Source of the DNA: an uncultured Spirochaetaceae bacterium
GTDB taxonomy: Bacteria; Spirochaetota; Spirochaetia; Sphaerochaetales; Sphaerochaetaceae
Direction: 5' to 3'
Assembly (NCBI GenBank): GCA_944389115.1
Contig: CALXLE010000142.1
Span: 1-46,796, forward strand
DNA length: 46,796 bases
Shown here piece after piece: positions 2,752-8,920 of the stretch; the first letter of the stretch is position 1; each line of letters opens with the position of its first letter. The notes beneath the pieces were generated by a model. The model saw only the letters and a program-made list of their open reading frames with translations. It was not told the DNA's origin and searched no databases. A program made the position numbers and the translations under genes.

Positions 2752-3744
2752 ATGCAGATAAGGCTAAGGAATCTGAAGCGGAACTATGCATCGCTCCATG
2801 CTGTCGATGATGTTTCGCTTGATATACCATCCAACACAGTCTATGGCATCATAGGACGATCAGGGGCTGGAAAGTCTACACTAGTGCGTCTTGTGTCGAT
2901 GCTTGAGAAGCCTGATCAGGGCGAGGTCTATTACGATGACAAGCGCGTTGATAACCTCTCAAAGGAAGAGCTGATCCAGGAAAGGAGGAAGATCGGCATG
3001 ATCTTCCAGAACTTCAATCTCTTCTCTTCCAGGAATGCTGAGGAAAATATCGCCTATCCGATGGAGATATGCCATATGGATAAGGCTTATATAAAGAAGC
3101 GCACGGCAGAGCTTCTTGCTCTTGTAGGGCTTGAAGGGCGTGGCAGCGCTCCTATATCTACGCTGTCGGGCGGACAGAAGCAGAGGGTTGCGATTGCAAG
3201 AGCTCTTGCTGTGAAACCTGAGATACTGTTCTGCGATGAGGCGACAAGCGCTCTCGATCCACAGACGACACGTGCGATTCTCTCTCTTATCAAGGAAATC
3301 CAGAAGAAGATGAATCTCACTGTCGTGATGATCACTCATCAGATGGAGGTTGTCCGTGATGCATGCGACCGCGTTGCGGTGCTTGATGCAGGCCATATCG
3401 TCGAGGAAGGTCCTGTCTCGGATATATTCGCTTCGCCTAAAAGCGATGTTACGAAGGATTTCCTCTCATCGCTTACGAATGTCCATGAGTCTATTGTGCG
3501 CTGGTCGAATGATGGCGGGCACTATACGCTGCGCTTCCGCGGCGGTGCTACCGATGAGCCTATAATCTCAACGGTCTCCGCAAGGACAGGCGCTGTATTC
3601 AATATCAGGGCAGCAGGTGTGCAGACTGTCAATGGCGAGGAGCTTGGTGTGATGATCACTGATATCGGACCGGATGGGAAGACTGCGGCGGATGCTGTCA
3701 GGCTTCTTCAGGATATGGGTGTGCTGGTAGAGGAGGCTGAGTGA
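2752..3744 (+). CDS. metN: Methionine ABC transporter ATP-binding protein MetN
   Basis: This 330-residue ATPase of the methionine uptake transporter has Walker A GRSGAGKST (residues 35-43), signature LSGGQ (138-142), Walker B with DEATSALDP (162-170) and the switch His near 196. The last 80 residues match the C-terminal NIL domain, which in E. coli MetN binds methionine and inhibits transport. The length fits MetN (about 340). A GGAG motif lies about 10 bases before the ATG. The stop overlaps the metI start as TGATG, so the two are translationally coupled. I found no SAM riboswitch in the 106-base stretch between the kduI terminator and metN. Confidence 0.95.
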   Translation: MQIRLRNLKRNYASLHAVDDVSLDIPSNTVYGIIGRSGAGKSTLVRLVSMLEKPDQGEVYYDDKRVDNLSKEELIQERRKIGMIFQNFNLFSSRNAEENIAYPMEICHMDKAYIKKRTAELLALVGLEGRGSAPISTLSGGQKQRVAIARALAVKPEILFCDEATSALDPQTTRAILSLIKEIQKKMNLTVVMITHQMEVVRDACDRVAVLDAGHIVEEGPVSDIFASPKSDVTKDFLSSLTNVHESIVRWSNDGGHYTLRFRGGATDEPIISTVSARTGAVFNIRAAGVQTVNGEELGVMITDIGPDGKTAADAVRLLQDMGVLVEEAE

Positions 3745-4430
3745 TGGATGCTGTAATGTCTTTCTTCCAGTCAACAATGTTCACTCTTGTAGTGCAGGCA
3801 ACATGGCAGACACTGGTCATGGTGTTCCTTTCTACAATCTTCTCCATGATACTTGGACTACCGATCGGAATCCTTCTCCATGTGACTTCCTCCGAGGAGC
3901 AGGGGGGTATTATTCCTCATCCAGTCTTCTACAATGTTCTTTCGCGCATTGTGAATATCCTGAGATCATTCCCATTCATAATACTCATGATTGTCCTGAT
4001 GCCTCTCTCAAGGCTTATAATCGGCACAAGCATAGGAACGATGGCCACTGTGATACCTCTTTCGATAGCTGCGGCTCCATTTGTCGCAAGAATCATCGAG
4101 TCCGCGCTAAAGGAAGTCGATCCTGGTGTTGTCCAGGCCGCACGTGCCATGGGGTCAACGAACTGGCAGATAATCCTCAAGGTTCTTATACCTGAGGCTC
4201 TGCCTTCGCTTGTCTCCGGCGTAACGCTTACGATTATCAATCTCATAGGCTATTCAGCTATGGCAGGAGCCATAGGAGGCGGAGGACTTGGTGACCTTGC
4301 AATCCGCTATGGATACCAGAGATTCAGTCCATCATATATGGTCTCCGCAGTCATTGTAATCATTGTCATGGTTGAGGTGATACAGTTCATCGGAGATAGG
4401 ATAAGTGCTCATCTGATTGCTAAACGCTGA
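3744..4430 (+). CDS. metI: Methionine ABC transporter permease MetI
   Basis: This is a 228-residue membrane permease of the D/L-methionine ABC importer. It has five to six hydrophobic segments and the EAA-type cytoplasmic loop (EVDPGVVQAARAMGS), which contacts MetN, near residues 120-135. ATG 3744 overlaps the metN stop, giving the classic TGATG coupling. A GTG one codon upstream (3741) is also in frame but less likely. The MetI-specific pattern INLIGYSAMAGAIGGGGLGD is present. A 12-bp hairpin with a T-run follows, so metN-metI form their own unit and metQ is transcribed separately or by read-through. Confidence 0.94.
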   Translation: MDAVMSFFQSTMFTLVVQATWQTLVMVFLSTIFSMILGLPIGILLHVTSSEEQGGIIPHPVFYNVLSRIVNILRSFPFIILMIVLMPLSRLIIGTSIGTMATVIPLSIAAAPFVARIIESALKEVDPGVVQAARAMGSTNWQIILKVLIPEALPSLVSGVTLTIINLIGYSAMAGAIGGGGLGDLAIRYGYQRFSPSYMVSAVIVIIVMVEVIQFIGDRISAHLIAKR

Positions 4431-4478
4431 TTGGATATGCGGATTATCTGAAAATTCTGGGATACTCTAATTATTTAT

Positions 4479-4516
4479 AAAGCAGGGAGATATTATAATT
4501 TCTTCCTGCTTTTTCC
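4479..4516 (+). terminator. Rho-independent terminator between metI and metQ
   Basis: Bases 4479-4490 pair with 4501-4512 (12 bp with one G-T pair, core AAAGCAGG/CCTGCTTT) around a 10-base AT-rich loop. The hairpin runs into TTTTT. It separates metNI from the leader and metQ. Confidence 0.75.
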
Positions 4517-4608
4517 ATAAAATTTGCATTAAACGCATGGAAATTATGTTGCATATTCTTGCACCTTTATGCATAATCAGGACATCAAAGATAAAGGAGA
4601 GCACGATT

Positions 4609-4671
4609 ATGGCAAATACATCATCCATCATATCCATGCGCATGTTCTCCATGATGCCCGCGAGGGCATAA
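4609..4671 (+). CDS. Putative Met-rich leader peptide upstream of metQ
   Basis: A 20-codon frame follows an excellent ribosome-binding site: AAAGGAGA at 4593-4600, 8 bases before ATG. Five of its 20 residues are Met (positions 1, 10, 12, 15, 16), including MRM and MM, and Arg occurs twice. The stop TAA lies at 4669-4671, 87 bases before the metQ ATG. Bases 4656-4667 at its 3' end can form a GCCC-GCGA-GGGC hairpin, so ribosome stalling at the Met codons could change the fold. Amino-acid-rich leader peptides ahead of biosynthesis or transport genes are a known attenuation device, but whether this one is translated is inference. Confidence 0.4.
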   Translation: MANTSSIISMRMFSMMPARA

Positions 4672-4758
4672 TACTTCTATTCCACCACATTTCTATAATT
4701 GCTCAGGGTCCTTCGGGATATCGTCATACTTAATCGAATTGTTTTTGGAGATATATTA

Positions 4759-5562
4759 ATGAAAAAGACATTTGCTATTCTTGCTGTGCTTCTTATCGCA
4801 GTATCTGTTTTCGCTTCCGGTTCCAAGGAATCCGCTGATTCCAATGTCATCAGAGTCGGTGCAACACCTGATCCGCACGGAGTTCTTCTCGGTCTTGTGA
4901 AAGACGATCTCGCTGCTCAGGGAATCGACCTCCAGATTGTTGAGTTCACGGATTATGTGACACCGAATGAAGCTCTTGCTTCTGGTGATATCGATGCAAA
5001 CTACTTCCAGCACCTTCCGTACATGGAGAGCGCAAATGCAGAGCGCGGCTATCATCTTGTGAATGCTGGCGGCATCCACATCGAGCCTCTTGCAGTATAC
5101 AGCGAGAAGTATGACTCGCTCGAGGCTATCCCTGATGGAGCAAAGATTGCTATCCCTAATGATCCTACGAATGAGGGAAGAGCTCTTCTCCTTCTCCAGA
5201 GCGCAGGTCTCATCACTCTTAAGGCTGATGCTGGTCTTGAAGCTGTTCCTTCTGATATCGCAGAGAACCCGCACAACTTCTCATTCTCCGAGATTGAGGC
5301 TGCATCGCTTCCACGTGTTCTTGCAGATGTCGATGCTGCTGTAATCAACGGCAACTATGCTATCCCAGCAGGTCTTATCGCAACACGTGATGGTCTCTTC
5401 ATTGAGAACGCAGACAGCCCGTATGTGAATGTCATTGCTGTCAATGATGGCAATCAGGACGATCCTAAGGTGCAGGCTCTTGTCGCAGCTCTCAAGGGAG
5501 ACAAGGTAAGGGAGTATGTTGCAGAGCGCTATCCTAACGGAGAGGTCGTGCTCGTAGACTGA
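4759..5562 (+). CDS. metQ: Methionine-binding protein MetQ (NlpA family)
   Basis: This is the substrate-binding protein of the methionine importer, 267 residues from ATG 4759 (GGAG at 4747-4750). A further upstream in-frame ATG at 4699 would add 20 residues in front of the signal peptide and is rejected. The signal peptide is MKKTFAILAVLLIAVSVFAS. It lacks a Cys at the junction, so it appears to be a periplasmic rather than lipidated protein, unlike E. coli MetQ. NlpA-family features include DYVTPNEALASGDIDANYFQH and the later INGNYAIPAGL, which line the ligand site. It follows metNI after a terminator and a putative leader, suggesting separately tuned expression. Confidence 0.94.
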   Translation: MKKTFAILAVLLIAVSVFASGSKESADSNVIRVGATPDPHGVLLGLVKDDLAAQGIDLQIVEFTDYVTPNEALASGDIDANYFQHLPYMESANAERGYHLVNAGGIHIEPLAVYSEKYDSLEAIPDGAKIAIPNDPTNEGRALLLLQSAGLITLKADAGLEAVPSDIAENPHNFSFSEIEAASLPRVLADVDAAVINGNYAIPAGLIATRDGLFIENADSPYVNVIAVNDGNQDDPKVQALVAALKGDKVREYVAERYPNGEVVLVD

Positions 5563-5585
5563 TCAGGTCCTTTATTTCTGATTCC

Positions 5586-5625
5586 GAAGGCTGTTCTGGA
5601 TGATTCCGGACAGCCTTCTTTTTTT
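5586..5625 (+). terminator. Rho-independent terminator after metQ
   Basis: A 9-bp perfect stem GAAGGCTGT/ACAGCCTTC, extended by two more pairs, is followed by seven T residues. This is a strong terminator ending the methionine unit. Confidence 0.9.
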
Positions 5626-5640
5626 GCGAAATCCCGGTCT

Positions 5641-5682
5641 GAAACGGACTCTTTCAATAAAAATTGCAATTTCGTCCGTTTC
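5641..5682 (+). promoter_or_regulatory. Nested palindromes upstream of the alpha-mannosidase
   Basis: GAAACGGAC (5641-5649) and GTCCGTTTC (5674-5682) form a perfect 9-bp inverted repeat separated by 24 bases. Inside it lies the perfect 12-bp palindrome AAATTGCAATTT (5661-5672). There is no T-run after the second arm and a terminator already lies just upstream, so this looks like a regulator-binding region for the GH38 gene rather than another terminator. The regulator is unknown. Confidence 0.4.
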
Positions 5683-5794
5683 GGGAGCTGTTTGGTACAT
5701 ATACAGCTCCGCATATTGTGAGCCCTCCTGATAATATTGGTTGCATTGGAATCTGCCCTGGATGATAATCTCTTCTGGAAAGCAAGGAGGTACT

Positions 5795-8700
5795 ATGGAA
5801 GGCTGGAATCAGAAGGGACGGATGATAATCATCACGGAGCGAATCGCCCAGTTCATAAATGAGCTGAAGGAGAGAGGCATAGCAAGGCGCATTCCGCTCT
5901 CCGCTTCTGTATACATTACCGATGAAAGGCTCCCGCTTAAGGATACCATCAATCTGGGGCGCAGACCGATACAGCCTGGGGCTGAATGGGGTCGGAACTG
6001 GCAGTCTGGATACTTCCTTCTTGAGGCAGATGTACCTGATGATTTCCCTTGTTCTGATACCTTCCTTTCCGCAGATCTGGGAGGCGAGGTGCAGATTTAT
6101 GATGATAAAGGCAATGCTCTTTTCGGCCTGACGGATAGATCTGCTTTCGATTGCAATTATGTGAAGAGCGAGGAACGGTTCACTGTTGTTCCTGGCCATT
6201 GCAGAATCTATGCAGAAGCTGCAGCCAATAATCTCTTTGGGTTATCAAGACGCGAGATGAAGTTCTCAAGGGACATCCCTGAACCTGAAGGGCGGCATAT
6301 CAGCATATTCCGCTATGCTGACATTGCTATAATCGACAAGAAGCTCCATGAGCTCTATGTATCCATGGATGCGCTCTTCGATCTCTATCAGAATATCGAT
6401 AGGAATTCGATCAAAGCTGTCAGAATCATATCATCGCTCTTTGATGCGATGACAGCATTCTCAAGATCAGGTACTAACGAGGCTTTGGCGATTATACGGA
6501 AAGAGCTGGAAAAACCCGCATCGGCTTCCTTCCTTTCTACTGCTGTTGTAGGGCATGCCCATATCGATACAGGCTGGCTGTGGCCTATTGCGGAGACGCA
6601 TAGGAAGGTAATGCGTACATTCTCCAGCCAGATTGTGAATCTGGAGAATTATCCGGAATATATCTTCGGAGCATCATCGCCTCTTCATTATGAATGGGTT
6701 AAGACCGAGCAGCCAGAGCTTTACCAGAAGATAAAGGATGCTGTGGCTGAGGGGCGGTGGGAACTGCTTGGCGGCATGTGGGTAGAACCTGACTGCAATC
6801 TTGTATCGGGTGAATCACTTGTGCGCCAGATACTGGAAGGGAAGAATTTCTTCAGAAAGGAATTCGGAAAGGATGTGAGAACGTGCTGGATTCCGGATTC
6901 CTTCGGGTATCCTGCATCCCTCCCTCAGATTCTGGCAAAGTCCGGTATCCGGTATTTCTCTACGCAGAAGATCTCATGGTCGCTCTCCAATCAGTTTCCG
7001 TATGATAGCTTCATATGGGAAGGGGTAGATGGAAGCCAGGTTATTGCCCACTTCCTTCCAGAGCATACATATAATTCATCCGGAAACTTCGGCTCCCTTC
7101 TGAGAGCGCAGGAGAACTTCCTTGAGAAAGACAGGCTGGATGAGTTCGTGACGGCGCTTGGCATAGGCGATGGTGGCGGTGGGCCGAAAGCTGAGCATAT
7201 TGAAAGGGTGCTGCTTGCCCATGATACAGAAGGTGTTCCAAGAGCATCGTTCTCATCTGTCGAGGATTTCTTTGACCGTCTTGCAATGTCTGAGGATAAG
7301 CTTTCGCATTATAGGGGTGAGCTGTATCTGGAATTCCATCGTGGTACATACACATCTCAGGCGAGGAACAAGCGTATGAACAGAATGGCAGAGGAGGCTC
7401 TGAAGCCTGTCGAGGCGCTGGATGTGCATCATGGAGGTCTGTTCAGCAATCGGATAAAGGATGCGCTCCATACCATGCTTGCATTCCAGTTCCATGATAT
7501 CCTTCCTGGATCAAGCATCGGGGCTGTATACAGGGAGACAGAGGAAGGATACAAGGCAGTATTCACTGCTTTCTCCGATATCCTTTCTGGAGCTTTGGAC
7601 TCATCTGGATGCGGGGACTATGGATTTGCTTCATCCTTCGCCTCTCGGAATAGCCATGGCAGAATGGGCTATCTGATGATGTTCAGCGGAGACGGATACA
7701 GACTTCCTCATATCGTTAAGCTCCCAGCCTGTGATGTGCACCCCTCTTCATGCGGAGGACGTGGTATACAGGAATACAGGGGAGAATTATATACCAGTAC
7801 AGGATTATCAAGCCATAATTGGAATGTATTCAACCTTGATTATTCTGATAACCTGCCATCGGAATCGATGATTGATGCAGGGGATCTTGTACTTGATAAC
7901 GGCAGAGTCCGCTATGAATTCGATTGCCATGGCCATCTTCTGAAGGGAATGTTCAGTAAGAGTGGTTTCGAATTCACATATTCCGGCATCGGGAATGTCC
8001 TTAAGCTCTATGCGGATGAGCCGCATGTATATGATGCCTGGGATATCGAATACTACTATCCGGAGATGGAGTGCTCACAGGTTGAGTGCATCTCCGCATC
8101 GCGCAGTGTCGATGGACCGGTCTTCTCCGCTCTGAGATTCTCCTTCCGGGCAGGAAATTCCCTCATAGAGCAGGATGTCATCCTTCCGAATGATTCAGAT
8201 GAGATATACTTCAGGACGAAGGTGCAGTGGCATGAGGCGAAGAGGCTTCTGCGGGTTTCATTCCCATGCAATCCTATGGTTGGTTTCTGCACCTCGGATA
8301 TCCCTTACGGCGAGATACGTAGGAAGACCCATGTCCAGAATGAATGGGATGCTGCAGCCTTCGAATTCCCTGCGCGTCTTTTCACCGATGTAAGCAACGG
8401 CAGGGGAGTTGCACTTGCATCCGACTGCAAGTACGGATACAGCGTCAGGGGTGGGCGCATCGGCTTAAGCCTTCTCAGGAGTCCTCTTGATCCCGATCCA
8501 TACGCAGACCAGGGAGAGCATGAGTTTACATATGCTCTCATCCCCCATGAGACAGCGCTTCCAGCTAGTCATGTCAGGGAGATTGCCTCATACCTCTCTT
8601 CCGCTCATCTTGCGATTATCAGCGAAGAAATCCCAGACTTTGCTTCTGCTCCGTCAGGCTATGAGGTTGCAGGCGATCATGTGCATATCACAGCATATAA

Positions 8701-8920
8701 GATGGCAGAGGATGGGGACGGGGCAGTGCTGAGACTTGCAGAGACGGATGGATGTCGTTCGGCGGTGCGCATTATCTCCCATCGTCCTGGCTATATGCTT
8801 GCTGAATGCAATCTGATGGAAGAAAGATTGTCCGATGGTTTAATTGATATCGCAGAGCCTGTCGCTTTTTCCCCATATGAGATAAAGACGTTCCGCGAGG
8901 TCTGCATCTCTGGTGCGTGA
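5795..8920 (+). CDS. GH38 alpha-mannosidase
   Basis: A 1041-residue retaining alpha-mannosidase that removes alpha-mannosyl residues from glycans or mannosyl oligosaccharides. It has no signal peptide, so it should act in the cytoplasm. An N-terminal accessory domain (about 1-250) precedes the catalytic barrel. GHAHIDTGWLWP carries the zinc ligands His256 and Asp258, and WIPDSFGY carries the nucleophile Asp at about 368. The C-terminal half is the beta-rich domain of the family. The length fits the long Ams1-like GH38 group. ATG 5795 is chosen because AGGAGG (5785-5790) stands 4 bases ahead; an upstream TTG at 5741 lacks such a site. It is monocistronic, with a GntR regulator gene 110 bases downstream. 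Confidence 0.93.
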   Translation: MEGWNQKGRMIIITERIAQFINELKERGIARRIPLSASVYITDERLPLKDTINLGRRPIQPGAEWGRNWQSGYFLLEADVPDDFPCSDTFLSADLGGEVQIYDDKGNALFGLTDRSAFDCNYVKSEERFTVVPGHCRIYAEAAANNLFGLSRREMKFSRDIPEPEGRHISIFRYADIAIIDKKLHELYVSMDALFDLYQNIDRNSIKAVRIISSLFDAMTAFSRSGTNEALAIIRKELEKPASASFLSTAVVGHAHIDTGWLWPIAETHRKVMRTFSSQIVNLENYPEYIFGASSPLHYEWVKTEQPELYQKIKDAVAEGRWELLGGMWVEPDCNLVSGESLVRQILEGKNFFRKEFGKDVRTCWIPDSFGYPASLPQILAKSGIRYFSTQKISWSLSNQFPYDSFIWEGVDGSQVIAHFLPEHTYNSSGNFGSLLRAQENFLEKDRLDEFVTALGIGDGGGGPKAEHIERVLLAHDTEGVPRASFSSVEDFFDRLAMSEDKLSHYRGELYLEFHRGTYTSQARNKRMNRMAEEALKPVEALDVHHGGLFSNRIKDALHTMLAFQFHDILPGSSIGAVYRETEEGYKAVFTAFSDILSGALDSSGCGDYGFASSFASRNSHGRMGYLMMFSGDGYRLPHIVKLPACDVHPSSCGGRGIQEYRGELYTSTGLSSHNWNVFNLDYSDNLPSESMIDAGDLVLDNGRVRYEFDCHGHLLKGMFSKSGFEFTYSGIGNVLKLYADEPHVYDAWDIEYYYPEMECSQVECISASRSVDGPVFSALRFSFRAGNSLIEQDVILPNDSDEIYFRTKVQWHEAKRLLRVSFPCNPMVGFCTSDIPYGEIRRKTHVQNEWDAAAFEFPARLFTDVSNGRGVALASDCKYGYSVRGGRIGLSLLRSPLDPDPYADQGEHEFTYALIPHETALPASHVREIASYLSSAHLAIISEEIPDFASAPSGYEVAGDHVHITAYKMAEDGDGAVLRLAETDGCRSAVRIISHRPGYMLAECNLMEERLSDGLIDIAEPVAFSPYEIKTFREVCISGA

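Follow-up and report, generated by a model that had tools for sequence, protein, structure and literature searches.

A methionine-rich short frame upstream of metQ in Sphaerochaetaceae as a putative leader peptide gauging methionine

In an uncultured spirochaete of the family Sphaerochaetaceae, metQ, the gene for the binding lipoprotein of a methionine ABC importer, follows metN and metI and is set apart from them by a terminator-like hairpin. The question raised by this locus, which lies in a window of 46,796 nucleotides (the whole stretch of DNA that was analyzed), is how a methionine uptake gene that stands as a unit of its own is controlled. A preliminary description had suggested that a 20-codon frame upstream of metQ, rich in methionine codons, is a methionine-sensing leader peptide. 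Leader-peptide attenuators are known for many other amino acids and none was found here for methionine, the amino acid that starts every protein. Shortage of methionine should lower initiation throughout the cell, which makes methionine codons an awkward gauge; such a gauge must distinguish a shortage at elongation from one at initiation, and the present system makes this question testable.

The leader locus

The features of the locus are collected in Table 1. The short frame was recovered as first described, with a ribosome-binding site (AAAGGAG at 4593-4599, 9 bases 5' of the leader ATG), five Met codons, four of them within the last 11 positions, and 87 bases between its stop and the start of metQ. 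The strong hairpin said to separate metN-metI from metQ is also borne out: a stem followed by T's lies at the place indicated, and the surrounding region, 4425-4530, folds with a z-score of -2.69, only 1 of 200 shuffles being as stable.

Table 1. Features of the metN-metI-leader-metQ region, in coordinates of the window
Feature	Position	Strand	Basis and remarks
metN, ATPase of methionine ABC importer	2752..3744	+	NCBIfam TIGR02314 best match, 320 bits (cut-off of 499.7 not reached)
metI, permease	3744..4430	+	NF008049 (MetI), 236 bits, over the cut-off of 212
Terminator-like hairpin closing the metN-metI unit	4479..4512	+	12-pair stem, 10-base loop, then T's
Promoter TTGCAT-17-CATAAT, sigma70-like	4549..4577	+	promoter-like scores compared with shuffles at 80 leader loci
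Leader Shine-Dalgarno GGAGAGCA, 5' strand of helix P1	4596..4603	+	pairs with 4643-4650; covaries over loci
Leader ORF MANTSSIISMRMFSMMPARA*	4609..4671	+	20 codons; sequence and comparison over loci
TGTTCTCC, 3' strand of P1, immediately 5' of the Met run	4643..4650	+	covariation
Met-codon run	4651..4656	+	2 ATG in the window, 3 in most relatives
Hairpin P2, ATGCCC-GCGA-GGGCAT	4654..4669	+	last Met codon to stop codon; 33/33 same-genus loci
G-depleted, U/C-rich segment with CCACCACAT (4682-4690)	4670..4702	+	base composition and motif counts
Small hairpin P3 (TCC-TTCG-GGA)	4709..4718	+	by-eye reading
metQ Shine-Dalgarno core GGAG	4747..4750	+	sequence; not specifically sequestered
metQ, methionine-binding lipoprotein	4759..5562	+	NF008285 (MetQ) 231 bits and TIGR00363 217 bits, best matches though under both cut-offs (374 and 228.85)

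The promoter upstream of the leader is kept among relatives, with a mean best score of 7.7 against 1.2 in shuffles and a score of at least 8 of 12 at 65 of 80 leader loci. Its position suggests a transcription start near 4584, and transcripts should thus begin about 10 bases 5' of the leader Shine-Dalgarno (SD) sequence. Two outcomes had been set against the leader reading in advance, namely loss of the frame in relatives and a start of metQ transcription 3' of 4671; the first did not occur (see below), and the second is unlikely because the conserved promoter stands upstream of the leader. A promoter within 4670-4700 was considered on the strength of a TATAAT at 4694 and rejected, as it has no -35 match and, by eye, is not generally kept in relatives. 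Beyond metQ, at 5804-8917, the window holds a large glycoside-hydrolase-like gene with a weak match to mannosylglycerate hydrolase.

Conservation and spread of the element

Comparison with related spirochaetes, which the preliminary description had prescribed, found the Met-rich frame conserved. Orthologues of metQ (E 1e-120 or better) were present in 34 of 36 genomes of the same genus, and a Met-rich frame ending in ...MM(M)P(xxA)* (asterisk, stop) precedes the gene at all 33 readable loci, a count that leaves out L004, where the contig begins inside metQ; this conservation is far beyond chance. In the 34th genome (G029), which has a contig break, both pattern and model matched the element on the contig that bears the 5' part of metQ. 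A covariance model of the leader element matched 82 of 139 genomes of the family at E 0.01 or better, and in a sample of 394 genomes of the class every match better than 9e-4 belongs to the window's family. Matches of 9e-4 or weaker occurred in 13 genomes outside the family; four extra-family matches were inspected (L240-L242 and L244) and none is a leader, nor are the matches L237 and L243 inside the family.

Pattern searches gave a similar distribution. Of 392 genomes of the phylum, 22 contain the strict pattern ATGATGCCCNNNNGGGCATRR, each of them once and every one in the window's family; when read backwards the pattern had no match in the same 392 genomes. A DNA-pattern scan of named genomes yielded at least 80 stretches, at least 59 of them in spirochaetes, including Bullifex porci, Candidatus Ornithospirochaeta and Candidatus Aphodenecus; the matches outside spirochaetes, at least 21, are taken as chance, none of those listed combining a leader-sized frame with an SD score of at least 6. 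Merging of identical regions reduced 101 to 69, most of them gathered by a pattern that requires P2, from which the 33 metQ-derived loci and the family survey are free. A recount of the leader loci, 93 when duplicates are included, gave 80 distinct ones; the loci are related and their counts are not independent events.

Bullifex porci and its relatives carry two leaders per genome (L086/L099, L092/L069, L088/L055 and L102/L096), the second before a metQ-like gene, and in such second genes the halves of MetQ are matched in swapped order (G030, G013). The same DNA pattern was also seen in metagenome-assembled contigs of Gemmatimonadetes and Gammaproteobacteria (L057, L065, L081, L105, L113 and L124) with near-identical surrounding translations; it is probably a conserved gene there, unrelated to the leader.

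Selection on the frame and its methionine codons

Reading on from the SD, the first ATG shares the frame of the Met run at 73 of the 80 distinct loci; no stop intervenes, and the distance between start and run, 36-78 nt, is always a multiple of three. At five further loci an ATG stands two or three bases past the SD and it is the following ATG that shares the frame, and two (L032 and L050) keep the leader frame without an SD; these two are probably leaderless, since a -10-like box is placed, by eye, for a start at the ATG. Within the variable part of the 80 leaders, Met makes up 203 of 1080 codons in frame (18.8%), against 9 of 1000 (0.9%) and 2 of 1000 (0.2%) for ATG in the other two frames; in-frame stops are zero in this count by construction, and the fair measure of frame is where the first ATG past the SD falls. 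Each leader has four to nine Met residues, the start included. The remaining residues drift: codons with a single change, from 17 pairs, comprise 17 synonymous and 29 non-synonymous cases against 12.7 synonymous expected, and the peptide tails differ among loci (MMMPVRA, MMMPLGA, MMMP*, MMMR*, MMCPCRA and MCMPWRA). As judged from these comparisons, the leader frame bears the signature of translation, and selection acts on its Met codons and not on the remaining peptide. In its frame, SD, start codon and promoter the element has the makings of an amino acid leader peptide, that is, a short ORF predicted to be translated near the 5' end of the transcript and bearing several in-frame codons of the regulated amino acid.

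A run of Met codons might alternatively be kept for the sake of the peptide, as in the nascent-peptide arrest of TnaC and SpeFL: the Met-run peptide in the exit tunnel would act with methionine, SAM or another ligand, and the codons would not serve the sensing of tRNA. The retention of MMMP or MMP at most of the 80 loci and the closeness of the run to the stop codon are in keeping with arrest. However, arrest peptides usually require fixed residues, whereas here the residue after the run is Pro or Arg, those that follow vary or are missing, the run itself is usually two to four Met and in a few loci contains an internal Cys or Arg, and the preceding residues drift. We therefore consider arrest unlikely, and read the Met codons as the sensor of a leader peptide.

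RNA structure around the Met run

The leader frame is accompanied by two helices. P1 joins the leader's own SD to the codons immediately before the Met run, and its two strands covary: matched strands pair at -13.84 kcal/mol and shuffled ones at -11.15 (66 loci, L032, L050 and L082 being left out), with none of 2000 shuffles as good. Likewise, the longest helix measures 8.4 against 6.7 when shuffled (none of 500 as good) over 78 loci, a set without L032 and L050, which lack an SD and hence P1; at least six contiguous pairs form at 72 of them, and three positions of the helix switch among G-C, A-U and G-U. P2, formed between the last Met codon and the stop, has a stem (AUGCCC-N4-GGGCAU) that is invariant in the 33 same-genus loci, whereas its loop varies. 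Since the stem never varies within the genus, a coding or sequence constraint would account for it there equally well, and its invariance in most of the 69 merged loci follows from a collecting pattern that demands it. In metQ paralogues of related genera, by eye, P2 takes the form of an (A)UGCGC/GCGCA stem with the peptide end MMMR*, which places Pro outside the needed residues; the CGC/GCG change is a single compensatory one, shared by related paralogues and probably inherited. A MAFFT-based count of P2 changes found no pair altered on both sides, since the alignment misplaces the rows with longer loops.

Past P2, a segment of about 30 nt is depleted of G (3.8%, compared with 18.5% beyond it, over 68 loci), and a CCACSACAU-like motif, represented in the window by CCACCACAT, matches at eight or nine of nine positions in 28 of these 68 loci, with a mean score of 7.0 against 5.9 in shuffles. 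P3-like hairpins of different sequence were seen by eye in many relatives, although not in all.

Known RNA regulators were sought at the same place. The Rfam scan of the window returned no family at gathering score, T-box included, and a permissive scan of 4400-4800 gave six matches, all under threshold at E 0.21 or weaker and none to a methionine or SAM family, in agreement with the earlier statement that no SAM riboswitch is recognizable; the element thus matches neither the SAM riboswitch nor the T-box covariance models. SAM-I (RF00162) was also not found in the window's genome, which is about 89% complete and was searched with strict filters that lose weak matches. In a genome of another spirochaete family (G052), a SAM-I riboswitch scoring 90.6 bits lies directly upstream of metQ (L199). 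Above-cut-off SAM-I riboswitches were seen in 13 of 60 genomes, G052 and 12 of the window's genus (L139-L145 and others), and SAM-I riboswitch and Met leader coexist in that genus.

With P1 and P2 conserved and the downstream motif recurring in part of the loci, the region could be thought an RNA that acts like a riboswitch or binds a protein, with the short frame as an incidental feature. Against this, start codon, SD and multiples of three are kept, Met is enriched only in frame, outside the Met codons no unpaired base equals the run in conservation, the loop of P2 varies, no Rfam family is matched, and L032 and L050 retain the frame in the absence of SD and P1. An RNA element of this type is accordingly quite improbable beside a leader peptide sensed through translation.

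Gene context

At the 80 leader loci metI lies upstream at a distance of 232-1248 nt in 55, and is absent from the available sequence in 25; at 27 loci of the family without a leader, metI is found at 3-108 nt in 24, and in 3 there is none within 700 nt. The difference in distance indicates that the leader accompanies metQ where it forms a separate unit, the exceptions being the three loci with neither leader nor metI. Control elements appear to be exchanged at one gene, with SAM-I before metQ in one family, the Met leader in the window's family, and no leader where metI stands immediately before metQ.

Elsewhere among relatives the element precedes metN-metI-metQ (L233), metQ-metN (L235, L238 and L247) and metQ-like genes, twice with a peptidase-like ORF behind them (L236 and L239), the MetN and MetI of these paralogous operons having been named by eye. 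It further heads metY (L245, with a model match over the cut-off), metA (L246, under the cut-offs of its models) and an ABC operon of family 5, peptide or nickel type (L232 and L234). On the minus strand of L235 (G489), a divergent leader, MNISSFATKYLLSSMCISMLMPGRA*, heads genes for an Fe-ADH and an aminotransferase, the third-best model of the latter, under its cut-off, being methionine aminotransferase; methionine salvage is a possible role for this pair. The genes downstream serve methionine, alongside a family-5 ABC operon and one Fe-ADH/aminotransferase pair whose substrate is unclear. The frame might instead encode a functional Met-rich microprotein made together with metQ, such as a peptide that binds metal or sits in the membrane. 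The good SD and the conserved frame would fit this reading, but it is hardly tenable, as Met content alone is conserved, the C terminus differs among loci and is missing in some, and wherever the downstream gene is readable it is related to methionine or to ABC transport, with the one Fe-ADH/aminotransferase exception.

The step from leader to metQ

A leader peptide must be coupled to its gene, and three routes were considered. For termination of the trp type, a scan of 4380-5800 called no terminator between leader and metQ and had a single match, inside metQ; this is a weak negative, because the scan allows loops of 3-8 bases only and also misses the metN-metI hairpin with its 10-base loop. 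P2 itself was rejected as an intrinsic terminator, since the U tract begins some 5 bases after it and is interrupted, and the scan does not call it.

Translation attenuation of the ermC type, in which a stalled ribosome frees a masked SD, also finds no support. The metQ SD is unpaired at 0.314, against 0.289 with shuffled spacers (77 loci, p 0.56), and the leader anti-SD does not covary with it (z +0.8). It is less open at loci with a leader (0.354, 77 loci) than at those without (0.522, 23 loci), a difference that base composition alone can explain. Simulated ribosome footprints at 65 loci, with L032, L050, L082 and L049 left out, gave no consistent opening of the metQ SD: it went up at 33 and down at 19 with the ribosome at Met1, 25 and 25 at Met3, and 32 and 12 at the stop. 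With no covariation, no extra masking and no consistent footprint effect, attenuation by the anti-SD or by the U/C-rich segment acting on the metQ SD was rejected.

The third route is by Rho. The window's genome encodes Rho, and the G-poor segment of 30 nt that follows the leader stop is of a fitting kind, although a typical Rho site is longer. These points make Rho-dependent termination or decay the leading guess, if weakly, and the link between leader and metQ would most likely be that the untranslated 5' RNA is terminated prematurely or decays.

A proposed mechanism and its relation to known systems

Collectively, these results lead us to regard it as likely that the short frame encodes a leader peptide whose translation, by way of its Met codons, gauges methionine and raises metQ expression when methionine is short. 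Its sensor part is well supported by sequence comparison, through the selection on in-frame Met codons, the methionine gene context and the exchange with SAM-I at the same place in another family. To this extent the first proposal of a methionine-sensing leader stands; stalling, its sign and its effect on metQ expression we infer. In the proposed mechanism, a ribosome would load at the leader near the 5' end of the metQ transcript and, when Met-tRNA is short, would stall on the Met run with P2 directly ahead. By the size of its footprint, a ribosome on the run lies over the 3' strand of P1 and the 5' arm of P2; it would thus cover the strand that otherwise closes the leader SD and hold P2 open, with the outcome that metQ expression rises under methionine shortage. 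By analogy with trpL, where the leader is translated for one round per transcript, P1 may limit this leader to a single round.

The attenuators of trp, his, leu and ilv combine an antiterminator with an intrinsic terminator before the gene. The Met leader resembles them in having a short ORF with codons for the regulated amino acid and in the position of the ribosome as sensor, and differs in that no such terminator was found. The SAM-I (S-box) riboswitch takes up this position before metQ in another spirochaete family and governs methionine genes, but it is a structured aptamer that senses SAM. A figure legend in PMC2965389 mentions a T-box before methionine transporter genes. The methionine T-boxes of the Firmicutes are likewise sensors of tRNA charging for methionine transporters, and differ in binding tRNA directly, without a leader ORF.

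The closest analogue comes from sulfur amino acids in another phylum, and a 2020 report by Canestrari is said to have described short polycysteine ORFs upstream of mycobacterial cys genes. The accessible parts of PMC1262725 place such ORFs in mycobacteria and other Actinobacteria, report that no terminator was found at them, propose Rho sites after the ORF, and state that conserved RNA structure was not seen before methionine operons in Actinobacteria. The M. smegmatis case is one of translation attenuation according to the available text of PMC13236596, which also describes leader-peptide attenuation of mycobacterial ilvB1. As far as these texts extend, the Cys ORFs and the Met leader have in common a run of sulfur-amino-acid codons near the stop of a short ORF, a position before the genes of that amino acid, and the lack of a terminator found. 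They differ in amino acid and in phylum, and the translation attenuation of M. smegmatis is unsupported at the Met leader; moreover, a hairpin on the codon run and a self-closed SD are not described for the Cys ORFs in the accessible parts of PMC1262725 and PMC13236596. Short leader genes in Spirochaetales and other groups were counted, with regard to reinitiation, in PMC4833913, as seen in part. Neither a methionine leader peptide nor an amino acid attenuator of a spirochaete was found in the accessible portions of the open-access literature (including PMC1262725, PMC2965389, PMC13236596, PMC6892785, PMC1273637, PMC4833913 and PMC8632094), which is no proof of novelty. As far as was found, the element would be of the leader-peptide kind, with a new amino acid, a new phylum and an unusual anatomy.

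A wider proposition is offered tentatively, as one that falls a little short of probable: that in the window's family ribosome stalling on Met or Met-Cys codons, and not a SAM riboswitch or T-box, controls methionine uptake and, in some members, synthesis. If so, it would be the first attenuator for methionine and the first amino acid leader-peptide attenuator in the phylum, with a new design in which the leader's own SD is closed by codons ahead of the run, without terminator or masking of the start.

Leaders before metY and metA

Beyond uptake, a Met-rich leader precedes 17 of 30 metY loci examined. All 15 metY loci of a Sphaerochaeta-like genus have one, eight with Met-Met-Cys, six with Met-Cys and one with Cys-Met-Cys; in g31 the single locus has Met-Met-Cys, and in g192 one of six loci carries a leader (the L245 locus, with Met-Arg-Met-Pro). 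None of eight metY loci in other genera passes the leader filter, which is an ad hoc one of Met/Cys content plus SD, so that these negatives are only as good as the filter. In the window's genus, none of the five metY upstream regions read (L325-L328 and L315) has a Met-rich short frame; on this ground, control by a leader is rejected for the metY of the window's genome itself (L315). Among eight metA upstream regions read, one has a leader (L246, and not L317-L323). This patchy regulon counts against the leader reading. In the metY leaders, P1-like pairing shows no covariation over 11 loci, 733 of 2000 shuffles being as good. The Met-Cys leaders before metY (L290, L292-L294, L301, L303 and L305-L314) belong to the Sphaerochaeta-like genus and g31, and in several of them the SD can also pair past the stop, for example TTGGAGG with CCTCCAA; the two closings of the SD may compete.
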